Positions 2,763-15,478 of a stretch of DNA of 64,000 bases are shown here, piece after piece. Each line of letters begins with the position of its first letter. Position 1 is the first letter of the stretch. This stretch comes from Sinomonas notoginsengisoli (GTDB lineage Bacteria > Actinomycetota > Actinomycetes > Actinomycetales > Micrococcaceae), in the NCBI RefSeq assembly GCF_021554725.1, contig NZ_JAIZDP010000001.1, positions 124,001 through 188,000 on the forward strand, read 5' to 3'. The position numbers were made by a program, and so were the translations under genes. The notes below the pieces were generated by a model. That model searched no databases and was not told the DNA's origin. It saw only the letters and a program-made list of their open reading frames with translations.

Positions 2763-4151
2763 TCATTGATCCGCGGAAGCACTCCTGGGCTCCCTGACCT
2801 TGGCGGCGCCGGGATGCTGGAAGGCGTCGACAAGAGTGCTGACCACATGGCTGATCTGCCACTCGCGCGCTCCGAGGTCCCTCAGGGCGTCAGTCAAGGA
2901 GTCGTTCGTGACTGGCTCGGGCGGCCGCCAGGCAATCCGGCGCAGGTGGTCCGGAGTGAGCAGGTTCTCGGACGGCATGCCGAGCGAATCCGCCAGCGCC
3001 GCGATCCGCGGGCGGGCCGTCTTGAGGCGGGCCGCGGCGTCGGGATCGCGGTCGTCCCACACGCGAGGCGGAGGGGGGCCGGAGCTCGGTACATGGAGTG
3101 GGGGCAGCTCCTCGAGCCGGCGCGCCTCCGACACGGCTCGCAGCCACCGCGGCGCCTCGCGCTGTGCGGCGCGTCCATGGAATCCCTTGGTGGTGAGCAG
3201 CTGGGGGACCGTGCTCGGCATCGCGCGTGCGACGGCGACGAGCGCGGAGTCGGGGATGAGCTTGCCGGGCGCGATGTCCCGCTTCTGGGCGAGGGCGTCC
3301 CTCTCGAGCCAGAGTTCCCGCACGGCCGCGAGCTGGCGCCGGTCGCGGATCTGATGGACACCGGACGTACGGCGCCACGGCTCGGGTTTGGGAGCGGGCA
3401 CCCCCGCTGCAAGGATCGCCGCGAATTCCTCTTCCGCGAAGCCAAGCTTCCCCTGAGTACGGAGAAGGTCGGCCAGCTCGTCCCGGAGCTCGATGAGGAC
3501 CTCGACGTCGAGCGCCGCATAGCGCAGCCACGGCTCGGGCAATGGCCTTGTCGACCAGTCTGCGGCTGAGTGCTCCTTCGCGAGGCTGAAGCCGAGCAGT
3601 TGCTCGACGACGGCGGCCAGGCCCACGCGGGGAAGGCCTGCCAGACGTGCCGCAAGCTCCGTGTCGAAGAGCTTCTCAGGCCACATTCCAAGCTCGGCGA
3701 GGCAGGGCAGGTCCTGTGTTGAGGCGTGGATGACCCATTCGACGCCTGCGAGGGCATCGTTGACGACCTTCAGATTCTCGAAGGGCTCTGGGTCAATGAG
3801 CCATGTTCCGGAGCCTTCGCGTCGGATCTGGACGAGGAAGGCGCGCTGGCCGTAGCGGAATCCGGAAGCCCTTTCGGCGTCGACTCCAGCGGGTCCGGTG
3901 CCAGTGGCCAGCGCGGCGGCTGCCCGTGCGAGCCCCTCCTGAGTTGAGATGACGAGGGGGACCCCGTCGCGCGGCTCAGCGAGCTCGACAACGGTAGGAA
4001 CTGGACCGAAGCCCTCGACGACGATGCTGTCCGAGGTGGCGGCTGCCGTCGGCTCTGGGTCACCGGGTGGGAGGTCCGGTGTGGCGTCGGGGCCCTCCGT
4101 GGGTCCGCTGCCTGGTCCCTGTCCGTTGGCGTCGTGGGGCTCTGCGGTCAT
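2763..4151 (-). CDS. rnd: HRDC-domain ribonuclease D-like 3'-5' exonuclease
   Basis: A 462-residue protein with a DEDDy 3'-5' exonuclease domain at about residues 65-235. The acidic residues are visible: D91-A-E93, D147 in IHASTQDLPC, and Y211/D215 in WLRYAALDVEVL. An HRDC nucleic-acid-binding domain follows at about 260-340, then a further helical C-terminal region, as in actinobacterial RNase D-like proteins. The family trims the 3' ends of stable RNAs in the cytoplasm. The first ~50 residues are Pro/Gly/Ala-rich and probably disordered. A TAGACT -10 sits 9 bases before the ATG. The next gene upstream on the same strand is DUF3000. RNase D activity is a family inference. Confidence 0.88.
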   Translation of the reverse strand: MTAEPHDANGQGPGSGPTEGPDATPDLPPGDPEPTAAATSDSIVVEGFGPVPTVVELAEPRDGVPLVISTQEGLARAAAALATGTGPAGVDAERASGFRYGQRAFLVQIRREGSGTWLIDPEPFENLKVVNDALAGVEWVIHASTQDLPCLAELGMWPEKLFDTELAARLAGLPRVGLAAVVEQLLGFSLAKEHSAADWSTRPLPEPWLRYAALDVEVLIELRDELADLLRTQGKLGFAEEEFAAILAAGVPAPKPEPWRRTSGVHQIRDRRQLAAVRELWLERDALAQKRDIAPGKLIPDSALVAVARAMPSTVPQLLTTKGFHGRAAQREAPRWLRAVSEARRLEELPPLHVPSSGPPPPRVWDDRDPDAAARLKTARPRIAALADSLGMPSENLLTPDHLRRIAWRPPEPVTNDSLTDALRDLGAREWQISHVVSTLVDAFQHPGAAKVREPRSASADQ

Positions 4152-4189: not shown

Positions 4190-4780
4190 TCAGTGGGACT
4201 CTGCTCGGCGGCCATGGCGGGGGAGGGCCGAGACCCCATCAGGAAGCGGTGGCACTCCCGCGAAGGTCGAGACCATGTCGCACCAGGCCTCGAGGTGGTC
4301 GCGGAGCTCGGGGCCGCTCGGAGTCCACGAGGCACGGAGTTCGATGTCGATCGTGTCGTTGCGGTCCGCGAGCGTCCCATAGCTCTCTGACAGGACGCGC
4401 GTGGCCGTTCCGCCCGCCGCAGTGTACGGTGCGTGGTGCTTCTCGAGGGATTCGACGAGCCACGTCCAGGCAACCGAGCCGAGGAGGGCGTCGTTGCCCA
4501 TGTCCTGTTCGAGCTGTGCCCTGATATAGGTCACGACACGGAAGGTGCCCTGCCACACGGGCGGCGGCTCAGGGTCGTGCAGGAGGATGAAGCGTCCCGT
4601 CGCCAACTCTTCGTCCTCTTCTCGGACGTCAGCCTGCAGGGCCACGGCGTAGGGGGCCAGCCGTGCGGGTGCCGGGATCTCTTCGAGGCGTAGGCCCCCG
4701 GTTCGTCGCTCACCCGTGGCACTTCGCATCGAGCGGAGGGCTGTCAAGAAGTCCGCAGGCAGGTGTGCTAGTGCGGTCAC
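4190..4780 (-). CDS. DUF3000 family protein
   Basis: A 196-residue protein of the actinobacterial DUF3000 family, of unknown function. It is soluble and acidic, with no signal peptide or membrane segment. The GTG at 4780 was chosen because a TACGCT hexamer lies 6 bases before it (leaderless, with GGGAAG also able to act as a ribosome-binding site). Longer versions would run into the threonine aldolase-like gene, which ends at 4839. It sits just upstream of the rnd gene on the same strand; in many actinobacteria DUF3000 keeps that company, but this says little about its role. Confidence 0.82.
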   Translation of the reverse strand: MTALAHLPADFLTALRSMRSATGERRTGGLRLEEIPAPARLAPYAVALQADVREEDEELATGRFILLHDPEPPPVWQGTFRVVTYIRAQLEQDMGNDALLGSVAWTWLVESLEKHHAPYTAAGGTATRVLSESYGTLADRNDTIDIELRASWTPSGPELRDHLEAWCDMVSTFAGVPPLPDGVSALPRHGRRAESH

Positions 4781-4838
4781 CTTCCCAGCGTACGCTGGCG
4801 CCGTGCGCACGGCCGGAACGGCACGCCGCCGTGGCCTC

Positions 4839-5936
4839 CTAGCGGCCGAGCTCCTCGCGCAGTGCCGCCGCGAATGCGTCGACGTCATCCTCTGTCGTGT
4901 CGAAGGAGCACATCCAGCGCACTTCACGGCGTGCAGGATCCCAGTCGTAGAACCGGAATCGCTGGCGAAGGCGGTCCGCAACGCCCTCAGGCAGGATCGC
5001 GAAGACCCCGTTGGATTCGGTGGGCTGAGTCAGCTCGACGCCGTCCAGCCCCTCCACGGCCTCCCTCAGACGGGCAGCCATGGCGTTCGCGTGGGCGGCC
5101 GAGCGCAGCCAGAGGCCGTCCTCGAGCAGTGCCAGGAACTGCGCCGAGATGAAGCGCATCTTCGAGGCCAGCTGCATGTCCATTTTCCGCAGGTACCTCA
5201 GGGCGCCTGCGGCCTCCTGGTCGAGCGCCACGACCGTCTCCCCGAACATGAGGCCGTTCTTGGTACCGCCGAACGTGAGGATGTCGATCCCCGCGTCCGT
5301 GGTGAAGTCGCGCGGTGGGATCCCAAGCCCCGCTGCCGCATTGGCGAGGCGTGCGCCGTCCATGTGGGCCTTCATGCCGAGTGCGTGCGCGTGCTCCGTG
5401 ATGGCCTTCAGCTCGGCGACCGAGTACCGCGTGCCCAGCTCGGTGGTCTGTGTGATGGAGACGGCGAGCGGCTGTGCGCGGTGCTCGTCGCCCCACCCCC
5501 AGGCCTCGCGGTCGATGAGCTCCGGCGTGAGCTTGCCGTCCTCGGTGGGAACCGAGAGGAGCTTGAGGCCGCCGACCCGCTCGGGGGCGCCGTTCTCGTC
5601 GACGTTGATGTGGGCCGTGCTGGCGCAGATGACGGCGCCCCAGCGGGGCGCGAGCGACTGGAGGGAAACGACGTTCGCGCCGGTGCCGTTGAAGACGGGG
5701 AAGGACTCGGCTGCGTCGCCGAAGAGGGCCTTGATGGCCGAGGCGAGGCGGAGCGTGTACTCGTCCTCTCCGTAGGAGACCTGATGGCCTCCGTTCGCGG
5801 CGCTTAGTGCGGCGAGGACCTCCGAATGGACCCCCGAGTAGTTGTCGGACGCGAAGCCGCGCACCGAGCTGTCGTGGAGTGGCCAGCCAGCCGGGATTGC
5901 GGCGAAGGCGGCAGAGGGGGATGAAGTCACGGTCAC
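4839..5936 (-). CDS. Low-specificity L-threonine aldolase-like PLP enzyme
   Basis: A 365-residue fold-type I PLP enzyme of the beta-eliminating lyase/threonine aldolase family. The PLP lysine is K226 in TFGGTKNGLMFGE, the ring-nitrogen aspartate is D193 in HMDGARLANA, and the phosphate-binding loop is NGTGANV at about 83-89. Family members split L-threonine or other beta-hydroxy amino acids into glycine and an aldehyde. The GTG at 5936 is used because the frame continues far upstream into the SDR gene; GTG at 5930 is an alternative. It is last in an operon with an SDR and DUF6421, so its substrate may be a specialised beta-hydroxy amino acid rather than threonine. That is inference. Confidence 0.88.
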   Translation of the reverse strand: MTVTSSPSAAFAAIPAGWPLHDSSVRGFASDNYSGVHSEVLAALSAANGGHQVSYGEDEYTLRLASAIKALFGDAAESFPVFNGTGANVVSLQSLAPRWGAVICASTAHINVDENGAPERVGGLKLLSVPTEDGKLTPELIDREAWGWGDEHRAQPLAVSITQTTELGTRYSVAELKAITEHAHALGMKAHMDGARLANAAAGLGIPPRDFTTDAGIDILTFGGTKNGLMFGETVVALDQEAAGALRYLRKMDMQLASKMRFISAQFLALLEDGLWLRSAAHANAMAARLREAVEGLDGVELTQPTESNGVFAILPEGVADRLRQRFRFYDWDPARREVRWMCSFDTTEDDVDAFAAALREELGR

Positions 5937-5988
5937 AGTATTGCCTAAGGGGTCGGTCGGGTGGAGTGCGTGAGAGGTCAGGGGTGCC

Positions 5989-6777
5989 TCAGAGCGTGAG
6001 GTCGATGCGGGCGCCGTTGAGCTTGGCGGCGTCGTCGGCGAACAGCGCCACGGCACGCGCCGCGAGGACATCCACGTGCGTGTATCCGGGGAATTTCCGC
6101 TCGGGGTTCGCCGTCCGCATCGCGTCGTCGAGCAGGGATTTCACCGCGAGCACGACGGCGGCACTCGTCTGCGGGAGGGGACCCGCCTTGCGCGCGGACT
6201 GGCGCAGGGCCAGCCCCTGTGCCATCGATCGCGTCCATGCCTCCGCGGCGGCCTTGGCAGCCTGGTAGTTGGCGTTTGCCGCGCTCGGCTTGGCGAGCGT
6301 GGTCGAGGAGACCATGGCGAATCGCCCACGGGGCGAGGTGGCGACGTCCTCGAAGAACGCGCGCGAGGTGTTGCGGAGGGTTGTGATGACGCCGTGGGCG
6401 AGGAAGTCCCAGTCCTCGTCGCTCTGGTCACTGAACGTCCCACCACCACGCCATCCGCCGACGAGATGGATGACCCCGTCCACAGTCCCGAACGTCTCGC
6501 GCAGCTCGGTTGCGAGCGAGTGGACTGCGGCGAGGTCGGCGAGGTCGCACTCGCGCTGAGGCACGCCGTCGTCCTCTGCCGTGCTTTGCGCTGTGCCGTT
6601 CGACGCGGTGGCGGAGAAGGCCGACGCGAGCCGCTCCGCATTGGAGCCCACGGCGATGGCCGTAGCGCCGGAGGCGCGCAGCATGCGGATGGTCGCACGT
6701 CCGGAGGCGGAAGTGGCCCCTGCGACGACGACGACGGCGCCCCGCGCGCCTTGGCCGCGGACCGTGTCCGTGCTCAC
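5989..6777 (-). CDS. Short-chain dehydrogenase/reductase
   Basis: A 262-residue Rossmann-fold SDR. The cofactor-binding glycine motif is AGATSASG at residues 19-26, a variant of TGxxxGxG. The catalytic serine is in MVSSTTLA at about 157-158, and the YxxxK motif is Y171-QAA-K175. The classical NAG position reads HLVGGW (about 104-109), which is unusual. The family oxidises or reduces alcohols and ketones with NAD(P). Its start overlaps the DUF6421 stop by 4 bases, showing translational coupling, and the threonine aldolase-like gene follows about 50 bases on. Substrate unknown; it may act on the aldehyde or keto product of its neighbour. Confidence 0.87.
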   Translation of the reverse strand: MSTDTVRGQGARGAVVVVAGATSASGRATIRMLRASGATAIAVGSNAERLASAFSATASNGTAQSTAEDDGVPQRECDLADLAAVHSLATELRETFGTVDGVIHLVGGWRGGGTFSDQSDEDWDFLAHGVITTLRNTSRAFFEDVATSPRGRFAMVSSTTLAKPSAANANYQAAKAAAEAWTRSMAQGLALRQSARKAGPLPQTSAAVVLAVKSLLDDAMRTANPERKFPGYTHVDVLAARAVALFADDAAKLNGARIDLTL

Positions 6778-8180
6778 GCCGCGGTATCCGGCCGGTGGTT
6801 GAGAGCGGTCTCGCCCGTGATCCCGGCGGTGGACTGGATGACTGCTCGCATCTTCTTCTCCAGGGCCTCGTAGAACATCGACAGCGGGAACTCGTCGTCA
6901 AGCACCTGGTCTGTGACCTCGCGGGGAGTGCCGGCCAGGGGCAGGGCGTTGGGGCCCTTGGACCAGGCTGAGGCGGGGTGCGGCGTCACGGTGTTCGAGA
7001 CGAGCTCATATGCTGCGAGCCAGTGTGCCACCTTGGGACGGTCGATGGAACGCCAGTAGAGTTCGTCGATGGCGTCGCCGAGCGCGCTCACCACGTCGGG
7101 CACACGTGTCCAGTTGATCGTCAGCCTCGTGTCCGTCCAGTGCAGGACGTGGTGCTGGTGCATCCACGCGAAGAGGAGCTGGCCTCCCAGCCCGTCATAG
7201 TTGCGGACACGGCCGCCGGTGATGGCGAAGCGGAAGATCCGGTCGAAGACGACGGCGTACTGGACGAGTTTCGCGTGCCTGCGGGTCTCGGGGGTTGCCT
7301 TCGGGTCGGCCTCGATCTTCACGGACTCGCGGAACGCGGTCAGGTCACAGCGCAGCTCCTCGAGCGCGTAGAGGAAGAACGGCATGCGCTGCTTGATCAT
7401 GAAGGGGTCGAACGGCAGGTCTCCGCGCATGTGGGTGCGGTCGTGGATGAGGTCCCACATTACGAACGTTTCCTGGGCCAACTTCTGGTCCGCTGCGAGC
7501 TCCGCGGCGTCCGCGGGGAGCTCGAGGTTCGTGACCTTCGCTGCGGCGTCGAGCACCCGCCGGAAGCGTGCGGCCTCGCGGTCGGCGAAGATTGCGCCCC
7601 ACGTGAACGTGGGGATCTCGCGCATCGAGACGGTCTCGGGGAAGAGGACGGCCGAGTTGGTGGCGTACCCGGGGGTGAAGTCGAGGAAGCGGATCGGCAC
7701 GAACAGCCTGTTGCTGTACTCGCCGGCCTCGAGGTCGGCGACGAACTCGGGCCATACGACCTCGACGAGGACGGCTTCGACGAAGCGGTTGCGGCTGCCG
7801 TTCTGGGTGTACATCGGGAAGACAACGAGGTGCTGGAGCCCATCGGAGCGGTCGCGCTGGGGCTGGAAGGCAACGAGGGAGTCCAGGAAGTCCGGGACGC
7901 CGAATCCCGTGCCCGCCCATGCGTGGAAGTCGGCTTGGAGGAGGCGGAGGTACTCGGCGTCGTGCGGGAAGCGCGGGGCGAGCTCGGCGATCGCGGAGGT
8001 GATCGTCTCGGCCAGTGCTGAGGCGCGCTCCCGGTCCGCTGCCTCGGGCACGGAGCCATCCTGGGCCTGCAGGTCCTGGAGCTCGATCGCAGCCTCCTTG
8101 AGGGCGAGCCACGCAGGGTCGCTTGGGGCGGGCAGCTGCGGATCCGATGCGATGGGGGCCGCGACGGCGTTGGCGGACAT
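6774..8180 (-). CDS. DUF6421 family protein, candidate metal-dependent enzyme
   Basis: A 468-residue soluble protein I assign to the uncharacterised DUF6421 family. The ATG at 8180 has GAAAGCGAG upstream; an ATG/GTG 15 codons earlier (8225) is the alternative. The middle holds HDRTH (H246, H250) followed by EELRCDL (E274, E275, D279), and later a His cluster HQHHVLH (341-347). H-x3-H followed by EExRxDL recalls the zinc site of gluzincin peptidases such as dipeptidyl peptidase III, but the HExxH form is missing, so a metal site is only a suggestion. It is the first gene of the operon with the SDR (4-base overlap) and the threonine aldolase-like gene. Confidence 0.75.
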   Translation of the reverse strand: MSANAVAAPIASDPQLPAPSDPAWLALKEAAIELQDLQAQDGSVPEAADRERASALAETITSAIAELAPRFPHDAEYLRLLQADFHAWAGTGFGVPDFLDSLVAFQPQRDRSDGLQHLVVFPMYTQNGSRNRFVEAVLVEVVWPEFVADLEAGEYSNRLFVPIRFLDFTPGYATNSAVLFPETVSMREIPTFTWGAIFADREAARFRRVLDAAAKVTNLELPADAAELAADQKLAQETFVMWDLIHDRTHMRGDLPFDPFMIKQRMPFFLYALEELRCDLTAFRESVKIEADPKATPETRRHAKLVQYAVVFDRIFRFAITGGRVRNYDGLGGQLLFAWMHQHHVLHWTDTRLTINWTRVPDVVSALGDAIDELYWRSIDRPKVAHWLAAYELVSNTVTPHPASAWSKGPNALPLAGTPREVTDQVLDDEFPLSMFYEALEKKMRAVIQSTAGITGETALNHRPDTAA

Positions 8181-14532: not shown

Positions 14533-14604
14533 TGGGCGATACTGGGATCGAACCAGTGACCTCTTCCGTGTCAGGGAAGCGCGCTACCGCTGCGCCAATC
14601 GCCC
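14533..14604 (-). tRNA. tRNA-Val (anticodon GAC), copy 2
   Basis: A 72-base cloverleaf: acceptor GGGCGAT/ATCGCCC, anticodon stem CTTCC/GGAAG around CTGACAC (anticodon GAC), T-arm ACTGG-TTCGAAC-CCAGT. CCA is not encoded. It is identical to the copy at 14741-14812 and last in the five-gene minus-strand cluster. Confidence 0.96.
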
Positions 14605-14646
14605 GTGTTCAGTTGTTGCGCTGCCTGCGCGCCTCATAGAGGAGGG

Positions 14647-14719
<73 letters not shown>

Positions 14720-14740
14720 AGGGGGAGCATGGCTCCTCCG

Positions 14741-14812
14741 TGGGCGATACTGGGATCGAACCAGTGACCTCTTCCGTGTCAGGGAAGCGCGCTACCGCTG
14801 CGCCAATCGCCC
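14741..14812 (-). tRNA. tRNA-Val (anticodon GAC), copy 1
   Basis: Same 72-base sequence as 14533-14604, with loop CTGACAC (anticodon GAC). It is third in transcription order (Gly, Cys, Val, Gly, Val). Confidence 0.96.
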
Positions 14813-14842
14813 TCACTCCCGCCAGGGAGCAGGTGTCCACCG

Positions 14843-14913
14843 AGGTGGGGACGGGATTCGAACCCGCGTATACGGCTTTGCAGGCCGCTGCCTCGCCTCT
14901 CGGCCACCCCACC
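14843..14913 (-). tRNA. tRNA-Cys (anticodon GCA)
   Basis: A 71-base cloverleaf: acceptor GGTGGGG/CCCCACC, anticodon stem GCGGC/GCCGT around CTGCAAA (anticodon GCA), T-arm GCGGG-TTCGAAT-CCCGT. Second in the cluster and the only single-copy member. Confidence 0.96.
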
Positions 14914-14951
14914 GTGTTGGCATCCCGAGGATGCTTCGACAGTGTCCTGCG

Positions 14952-15024
<73 letters not shown>

Positions 15025-15112
15025 GGGGTGTTCCGCAGCACCCTAGCCGACCGAGCGATCCCATGACGGGTATCGCTTTGCGGCGCCGGGGCGCGCTTCA
15101 ACGAGTAACGAC

Positions 15113-15140
15113 TTTATAGGACCGGGGGGCAATGCACAAA
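15113..15140 (-). promoter_or_regulatory. Candidate promoter of the five-tRNA cluster
   Basis: On the minus strand TTTGTG (15140-15135), a 16-base spacer and TATAAA (15118-15113) form a plausible promoter. The AT-rich -10 stands out in this G+C-rich region. Transcription would begin near 15106. Confidence 0.5.
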
Positions 15141-15235
15141 TCCGGGATGCTGCCCGAAGTCGCCCCCTCCCGGGCCACGTTTGCCCCCTTGTGTCCGCGC
15201 TAGAACCCGCGCGCACGCGCACGCCCACACACGGG

Positions 15236-15289
15236 CACAGACACACCCACAGACAGGCCCACAGACACGCCCCAGACAGCCCACAGACT
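15236..15289. repeat. Imperfect 11-12-bp tandem repeats, CACAGACA core
   Basis: CACAGACA or a close variant recurs at 15236, 15248, 15260, 15271 and 15282, a spacing of 11-12 bp. The flank from about 15205 is also C/A-rich on the plus strand. It lies in the 380-bp gap between the minus-strand tRNA promoter and the tRNA-Val(CAC) promoter; I see no gene in that gap. Confidence 0.7.
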
Positions 15290-15335
15290 GGCTCGGGCAA
15301 GACGTGGAAGGGAGCGGCCACGGCGAGCTGGGGAT

Positions 15336-15365
15336 TTGGCGCTCGGCCGCCCTCTGGGCTAGAGT
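15336..15365 (+). promoter_or_regulatory. Promoter of tRNA-Val(CAC)
   Basis: TTGGCG (15336-15341), an 18-base spacer and TAGAGT (15360-15365) lie about 40 bases before the tRNA, a good sigma-70-type match. Confidence 0.6.
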
Positions 15366-15406
15366 CGTAGAGCGCTGCGGGCCGGAATATTGCCCGCGCG
15401 GCCCAG

Positions 15407-15478
15407 GGGCGATTGGCGCAGTGGTAGCGCGCTTCGTTCACACCGAAGAGGTCACTGGTTCGAACCCAGTATCGCCCA
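15407..15478 (+). tRNA. tRNA-Val (anticodon CAC)
   Basis: A 72-base cloverleaf: acceptor GGGCGAT/ATCGCCC, anticodon stem CTTCG/CGAAG around TTCACAC (anticodon CAC), T-arm identical to tRNA-Val(GAC). It differs from the GAC isoacceptor mainly in the anticodon arm, suggesting descent by duplication. It lies on the opposite strand from the cluster. Confidence 0.96.

Follow-up and report, generated by a model that had tools for sequence, protein, structure and literature searches.

What does a compact group of three genes do when it joins a protein of the DUF6421 family to a short-chain dehydrogenase/reductase (SDR) and an L-threonine-aldolase-type enzyme? Such a trio lies on the minus strand of the 64,000-nucleotide stretch of Sinomonas notoginsengisoli DNA analysed here (the window; contig NZ_JAIZDP010000001.1, positions 124,001 to 188,000). 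An earlier note, made from the sequence alone, had described three genes in tight order with a 4-base overlap and then about 50 bases. We confirmed the trio and its order at this site, with a GTGA overlap at the first junction and a gap of 52 bases between the SDR and aldolase genes:

6774..8180, minus strand: DUF6421 protein, 468 amino acids (PF19985, 804 bits); predicted Fe(II)/pterin-dependent amino-acid oxidase or hydroxylase
6774..6777, minus strand: GTGA stop/start overlap (4 bases) of the DUF6421 and SDR genes; the SDR start codon is GTG
5989..6777, minus strand: SDR-family NAD(P)H-dependent reductase, 262 amino acids (adh_short, 76.5 bits); candidate pterin-recycling partner
4839..5936, minus strand: L-threonine-aldolase-type enzyme dependent on pyridoxal phosphate (PLP), 365 amino acids (Beta_elim_lyase, PF01212, 167 bits; PDB 5vye)

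We propose, with a probability of about 0.45, that the trio encodes a small aerobic amino-acid-oxidising pathway in which DUF6421 would carry out the oxidation, the SDR would recycle the pterin and the aldolase would cleave the product. DUF6421 would bind Fe(II) through His246, His250 and Glu274 and, with O2 and a tetrahydropterin, would oxidise a free L-amino acid at C-beta or an adjacent position, as PolE acts on isoleucine; the product would most likely be a beta-hydroxy amino acid. The SDR, using NAD(P)H, would return the quinonoid dihydropterin to the tetrahydro form in the manner of a dihydropteridine reductase, and the PLP aldolase would split the beta-hydroxy amino acid into glycine and an aldehyde. 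Conservation of the trio, the fold and metal motif that link DUF6421 to Fe/pterin enzymes and the family of the aldolase are computational findings; the substrate class, a hydroxylation in place of a desaturation, the SDR as pterin recycler and the direction in which the aldolase runs are inferences.

The trio is a conserved operon

We surveyed the phylum with profile and homologue searches of 396 genomes from 242 genera (SDR profile threshold >165 bits). PF19985 was present in 27 of these genomes, i.e. in 11 of the 242 genera, and in each of the 15 genomes sampled from a genus whose genomes measure 6-10 Mb. A homologue of the aldolase occurred in every one of the 27 DUF6421-positive genomes vs 34 of the 369 negative genomes, and the SDR in 25 of 27 vs 4 of 369 (Fisher p about 3e-25 and 3e-33, respectively, uncorrected for kinship). 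At genus level, again uncorrected for kinship, the co-occurrence of aldolase and DUF6421 gave a Fisher p of 9e-11. The three genes shared order and strand in most of the 28 neighbourhoods read.

A second sample consisted of 80 related loci from named genomes, on other contigs, the closest being that of Sinomonas sp. ASV322 (84%). The SDR adjoined DUF6421 in 77 of the 80 loci, and 51 of these 77 pairs had the in-frame 4-base overlap. A full-length aldolase was present in 60 loci and lay at most 1.7 kb away in 55. The trio also occurs on plasmids: a Paenarthrobacter plasmid carries genes annotated as DUF6421, SDR and low-specificity L-threonine aldolase, and a Tsukamurella plasmid carries a trio with 4-base overlaps at both junctions, whose aldolase and SDR are 57% and 40% identical to those of the window. 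One plasmid-borne trio has a different gene order.

Neighbourhood conservation is thus far beyond chance, and the adjacency, the co-occurrence and the plasmid trios together indicate that the three genes form a unit. The trio is a real operon, widely conserved and found in numerous soil actinobacteria, and it makes a plausible small pathway, as which the earlier note had described it. The note had asked for gene neighbourhoods to be compared across the actinobacteria; we found the three genes to be common neighbours and not rare ones. In several Micrococcaceae the trio occupies the same chromosomal site as in the window, with msrB on one side and DUF3000 and RNase D-like genes on the other. 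The recurrence of the latter two genes after the trio suggests that it has a fixed chromosomal place in this family. In Micrococcaceae, Microbacteriaceae and one large-genome genus of the same class, the trio appears to be the form in which the DUF6421 family commonly occurs on the chromosome.

DUF6421 is a predicted Fe/pterin enzyme of amino acids

The earlier note had treated DUF6421 as a protein of unknown function. This description no longer holds: the protein has a characterised homologue in PolE, whose Fe/pterin-dependent oxidation of an amino acid was described in 2025. The window protein matches PF19985 over its full length (profile positions 1-436 of 437; 804 bits vs a curated cut-off of 25), and its relatives by sequence in the PDB are SnPolE and SmPolE (E values down to 3.5e-10). 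We built an AlphaFold (AF2) model on 37 aligned members of the family (predicted local distance difference test score, pLDDT, 82.8). The six best PDB matches to this model in Foldseek were PolE entries (E about 1e-12; template modelling scores 0.58-0.62 by query and 0.72-0.76 by target), followed by dipeptidyl peptidase III (DPP III). The predicted metal site is as follows:

7431..7445, minus strand: HDRTH, residues 246-250, metal-site motif H[D/E]xxH (His246 and His250 invariant)
7359..7361, minus strand: Glu274, predicted third metal ligand of HDxxHx23E (invariant)

None of the three residues varies among 17 diverse members, one of them a PolE-like protein of 22% identity, or among 37 further members. 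The motif of the window protein reads H246-D247-x-x-H250-x23-E274, and its spacing of 23 lies within that of the HE/DxxHx(21-23)E motif defined for the DUF6421/PolE family (PMC12614342).

PolE is strictly dependent on Fe2+, O2 and tetrahydrobiopterin (BH4) and acts as a desaturase, converting L-isoleucine to 3,4-dehydro-isoleucine; mutation of its H[E/D]xxHx(n)E motif abolishes activity, and addition of quinonoid dihydropteridine reductase (QDPR) stimulates it 2-3 fold (PMC12614342). With this one member of an antibiotic pathway, DUF6421 was recognised only in 2025 as a second Fe/pterin family, unrelated to the aromatic amino-acid hydroxylases; it has about 10,000 homologues, and the authors noted that many members adjoin amino-acid-modifying enzymes and proposed that the entire family consists of Fe/pterin enzymes (PMC12614342). 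The homology to PolE together with the retained metal motif makes Fe/pterin chemistry on an amino acid likely for the window protein; Fe/pterin chemistry as such we consider highly probable. Of the earlier note's picture of a small pathway with one unknown step, the operon and the plausible pathway stand, whereas the step called unknown has a likely chemistry.

We considered whether the window protein is an orthologue of PolE, i.e. an isoleucine desaturase, and rejected this: it is 22% identical to the PolE-like protein of locus L047, and its neighbours are msrB, the SDR, the aldolase, DUF3000 and RNase D (no search for PolF was made).

Other architectures and contexts were seen within the family. 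In distant families of the phylum (loci L042-L046, e.g. L044:4595-6835) DUF6421 is extended at its N-terminus by about 300 residues, which match GIFT/DUF4350 glutamine-amidotransferase-like domains, and the DUF6421 protein of the Tsukamurella plasmid is likewise long (about 707 residues). On a plasmid of Nocardia sp. NBC_00511 (L228) a DUF6421 protein 34% identical to that of the window is encoded two genes from tryptophan 2,3-dioxygenase, with neither SDR nor aldolase; this is possibly another branch of the family.

The SDR is a candidate pterin reductase

An Fe/pterin enzyme requires re-reduction of its pterin. The SDR of the trio, whose AF2 model has an SDR fold (pLDDT 92.7), carries two motifs that bear on such a role:

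6445..6465, minus strand: LVGGWRG motif, placed by sequence alignment at the NNAG position of classical SDRs
6253..6267, minus strand: YQAAK, the YxxxK active-site motif (Tyr171 and Lys175 invariant)

LVGGWRG aligns with VAGGWAGG of QDPR (the human reference sequence used is identical to PDB 1hdr). GGWRG was present in 91 of 94 trio SDRs, whereas none of 29 other SDR loci from the window's genome carried it at the NNAG position. Against a profile of three QDPRs, trio SDRs scored a median of 19.1 bits vs 6.6 for the other SDR loci of that genome. The residue 13 positions before the active-site tyrosine (Tyr-13), the catalytic serine of classical SDRs, is Ser in 59 of 88 trio SDRs, including that of the window, and Ala or Gln in the other 29; human QDPR has Ala at the aligned position. 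Moreover, 18 of the 20 loci without a full-length nearby aldolase still have the SDR adjoining DUF6421, which ties the SDR to DUF6421 and not to the aldolase. We see about even odds that the SDR works like a dihydropteridine reductase, recycling the pterin.

Membership of the QDPR family proper was tried and was not established by whole-profile PDB, fold, C-terminal-profile, motif-region-profile or short-motif searches. The motif-region profile returned QDPR entries at E 0.2-0.6 among 26 matches (best E 0.2), and a very short motif profile returned zero matches. In the neighbourhoods read around SDR copies of DUF6421-negative genomes no second pterin enzyme was recognised; in one such genome a carbinolamine dehydratase gene lies 1.6 kb from the SDR copy, which is suggestive at most.

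The aldolase is probably supplied by DUF6421

The best PDB match of the third protein was the L-threonine aldolase 5vye (E 1.4e-84, aligned over residues 26-361), and alignment with 5vye places the predicted cofactor lysine:

5259..5261, minus strand: Lys226, predicted PLP Schiff-base lysine (GGTKNG)

This lysine and the catalytic-type histidines His109 and His152 are conserved, and a genome search found the window aldolase to be the only clear L-threonine-aldolase homologue of the genome. With these results, the statement in the earlier note that this is not a house-keeping threonine aldolase could not be supported. The score of the protein reaches neither the NCBIfam cut-off for the low-specificity aldolase of the E. 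coli type nor that for GntG. PolE takes hydrogen from the C3/C4 region of its substrate, so a hydroxyl group placed at C3 by a related enzyme would give the type of compound that the aldolase family cleaves. The aldolase probably acts on a product derived from DUF6421.

Genomic context of related copies and pterin supply

Lrp/AsnC regulators are divergently placed beside L031, L044 and L046, which belong to three distant families, and one is also found beside L224. In Arthrobacter, paralogous DUF6421-SDR pairs adjoin an amino-acid permease or an amino-acid ATP-binding cassette (ABC) transporter. This transporter recurs beside the trio on the Paenarthrobacter plasmid, with about 80% identity in both its permease and its ATPase. 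The presence of Lrp-type regulators and amino-acid transporters near such copies fits the import and oxidation of an amino acid. Neighbours of the paralogous copies include a LysP-like permease, an amino-acid ABC transporter whose binding protein belongs to family 3 and, on one plasmid, an agmatinase-type hydrolase. They hint at basic amino acids as substrates of those copies; this hint does not extend to the window copy.

These second DUF6421-SDR copies (L067, L092, L093, L080, L036 and L111) have no full-length aldolase and stand beside amino-acid transporters; L111 retains an aldolase remnant of 127 residues, 66% identical over 119. The conjugative plasmid of Paenarthrobacter sp. OM7 (L226) combines the trio with an agmatinase-type hydrolase, an amino-acid ABC transporter, a permease and a LysR regulator, a set that hints at a guanidino or basic amino acid as the substrate there.

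The window genome encodes a pterin carbinolamine dehydratase and GTP cyclohydrolase I, and a search of it found no aromatic amino-acid hydroxylase (Biopterin_H). Carbinolamine dehydratase was present in 25 of the 27 DUF6421-positive vs 197 of the 369 negative genomes, a co-occurrence that kinship confounds, the dehydratase being present in most genomes sampled from the same class.

Weighing the pathway against alternative explanations

Several results weigh against the pathway as proposed. The single family member tested in the published work, PolE, desaturates instead of hydroxylating, and it is about 22% identical to the window protein, as judged via the PolE-like L047. Some DUF6421 loci or genomes have no SDR (L131, G328, G378), and four genomes have the SDR without DUF6421. 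The window SDR retains the serine at Tyr-13 (Ser158); whole-profile PDB and fold searches rank FabG-type SDRs top, with no QDPR among the 60 and 50 matches listed; and single-sequence hhalign comparisons gave trio SDRs a median of 47 and other SDRs one of 37, a weak separation (p 0.03) with overlapping ranges. At two of the loci in question, L131 (Salinibacterium) and L044 (G378), the aldolase gene directly follows DUF6421.

The results on the SDR could also be read to mean that it is a classical alcohol or carbonyl dehydrogenase, acting on the beta-hydroxy or unsaturated product of DUF6421 or on the aldehyde that the aldolase sets free; recycling of the pterin would then fall to another enzyme or proceed without one. 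Some SDRs, e.g. E. coli YdfG, oxidise beta-hydroxy amino acids, the sequences and folds nearest to the trio SDR are those of classical SDRs, FabG-like ones among them, and the window SDR has Ser158, Tyr171 and Lys175. However, about a third of trio SDRs do not keep this serine, the invariant LVGGWRG is unusual for classical SDRs (0 of 29, as above), and the SDR remains with DUF6421 where the aldolase has been lost, which makes a role for it downstream of the aldolase improbable. We regard a classical dehydrogenase as unlikely.

Two other explanations concern the aldolase, and we give little credence to either. The trio might be biosynthetic: the aldolase would join glycine to an aldehyde, or the pathway would supply a specialised metabolite with an unusual amino acid, the part that PolE plays for polyoxin. 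The reaction of PLP threonine aldolases is reversible, which would allow this. Against it, the neighbours are not peptide-synthetase or nucleoside clusters, several Micrococcaceae have the trio at one shared site, flanked by msrB and by DUF3000/RNase D, it occurs in all 15 sampled genomes of the 6-10 Mb genus, and the amino-acid importers and Lrp-type regulators beside some copies suit uptake and breakdown. Alternatively, DUF6421 and the SDR could be the real unit and the aldolase an ordinary threonine or allo-threonine aldolase that is merely co-located, an explanation that accommodates both the lack of a second clear homologue in the genome and the paralogous DUF6421-SDR pairs with no full-length aldolase nearby. 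It is harder to reconcile with the presence of this aldolase type in all DUF6421-positive vs 9% of other genomes, usually adjacent, with the trio travelling together on plasmids, and with two genomes in which the non-adjacent aldolase still lies 17-26 kb away on the same contig. The oxidation pathway set out at the start is the reading we prefer.

Surroundings of the locus

In the window msrB lies upstream of the trio and two genes follow it:

4190-4981: DUF3000 gene
2763-4151: RNase D-like gene

DUF3000 and RNase D-like genes, matched by their N-termini, also follow the trio at Arthrobacter and Glutamicibacter loci L091, L094 and L112. Six tRNA genes cluster at window positions 14533-15478, five of them on the minus strand and the sixth on the plus strand. 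An Rfam scan of the first 20 kb found tRNAs and no other RNA element, and searches of the region found no sigma-70-like promoters or intrinsic terminators, a similar number being expected by chance. A role in anti-phage defence and a phage origin were also considered and set aside: PADLOC matched none of the three proteins, and there were zero matches across 50,697 phage records.

Significance and comparison with known systems

In the literature searched, whose scope left out most subscription journals, we found no description of the trio; published work covers the DUF6421 family and one biosynthetic member (PMC12614342). Our tentative view is that the trio may represent a widespread and undescribed aerobic pathway of actinobacteria, in which a non-classical Fe/pterin enzyme would oxidise a free amino acid at C-beta, the product would be removed as glycine and an aldehyde, and a new bacterial lineage of dihydropteridine reductases, the LVGGWRG SDRs, would serve the oxygenase. 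The trio offers a candidate native pterin reductase, whereas the published PolE assays added a QDPR instead (PMC12614342). The substrate preference of the aldolase should reveal the hydroxylated product.

The window DUF6421 protein shares with PolE its Pfam family, the HD/ExxHx21-23E metal motif and, by Foldseek, its fold. PolE has about 370 residues and works with PolF in the polyoxin antibiotic cluster, whereas the window protein has 468 and stands with an SDR and an aldolase. The trio SDR resembles human QDPR (1hdr) in its SDR fold, in YxxxK and in GGWxG at the same aligned position; it differs in being nearer to classical SDRs overall and, in the window, in keeping the Tyr-13 serine. With the low-specificity L-threonine aldolase 5vye the window aldolase has in common the family, the PLP lysine and the histidine positions over the full length, and it differs in its operon context.

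The guanitoxin pathway uses a different oxygenase from that of the trio. Its PLP enzyme GntG performs a retro-aldol step after amino-acid oxidation (PMC10367076), which is the use proposed here for the window aldolase, although the two are distant relatives (74 bits vs a cut-off of 230). Pterin-dependent oxidation of amino acids is known mainly from the aromatic amino-acid hydroxylases, whose systems comprise a Biopterin_H hydroxylase, a carbinolamine dehydratase and a quinonoid dihydropteridine reductase. The proposed pathway would follow the same logic, in which a reductase recycles the pterin for an Fe/tetrahydropterin amino-acid oxygenase, but with an oxygenase of an unrelated, PolE/DPP III-like fold and a reductase that belongs to the QDPR family neither by whole sequence nor by fold.

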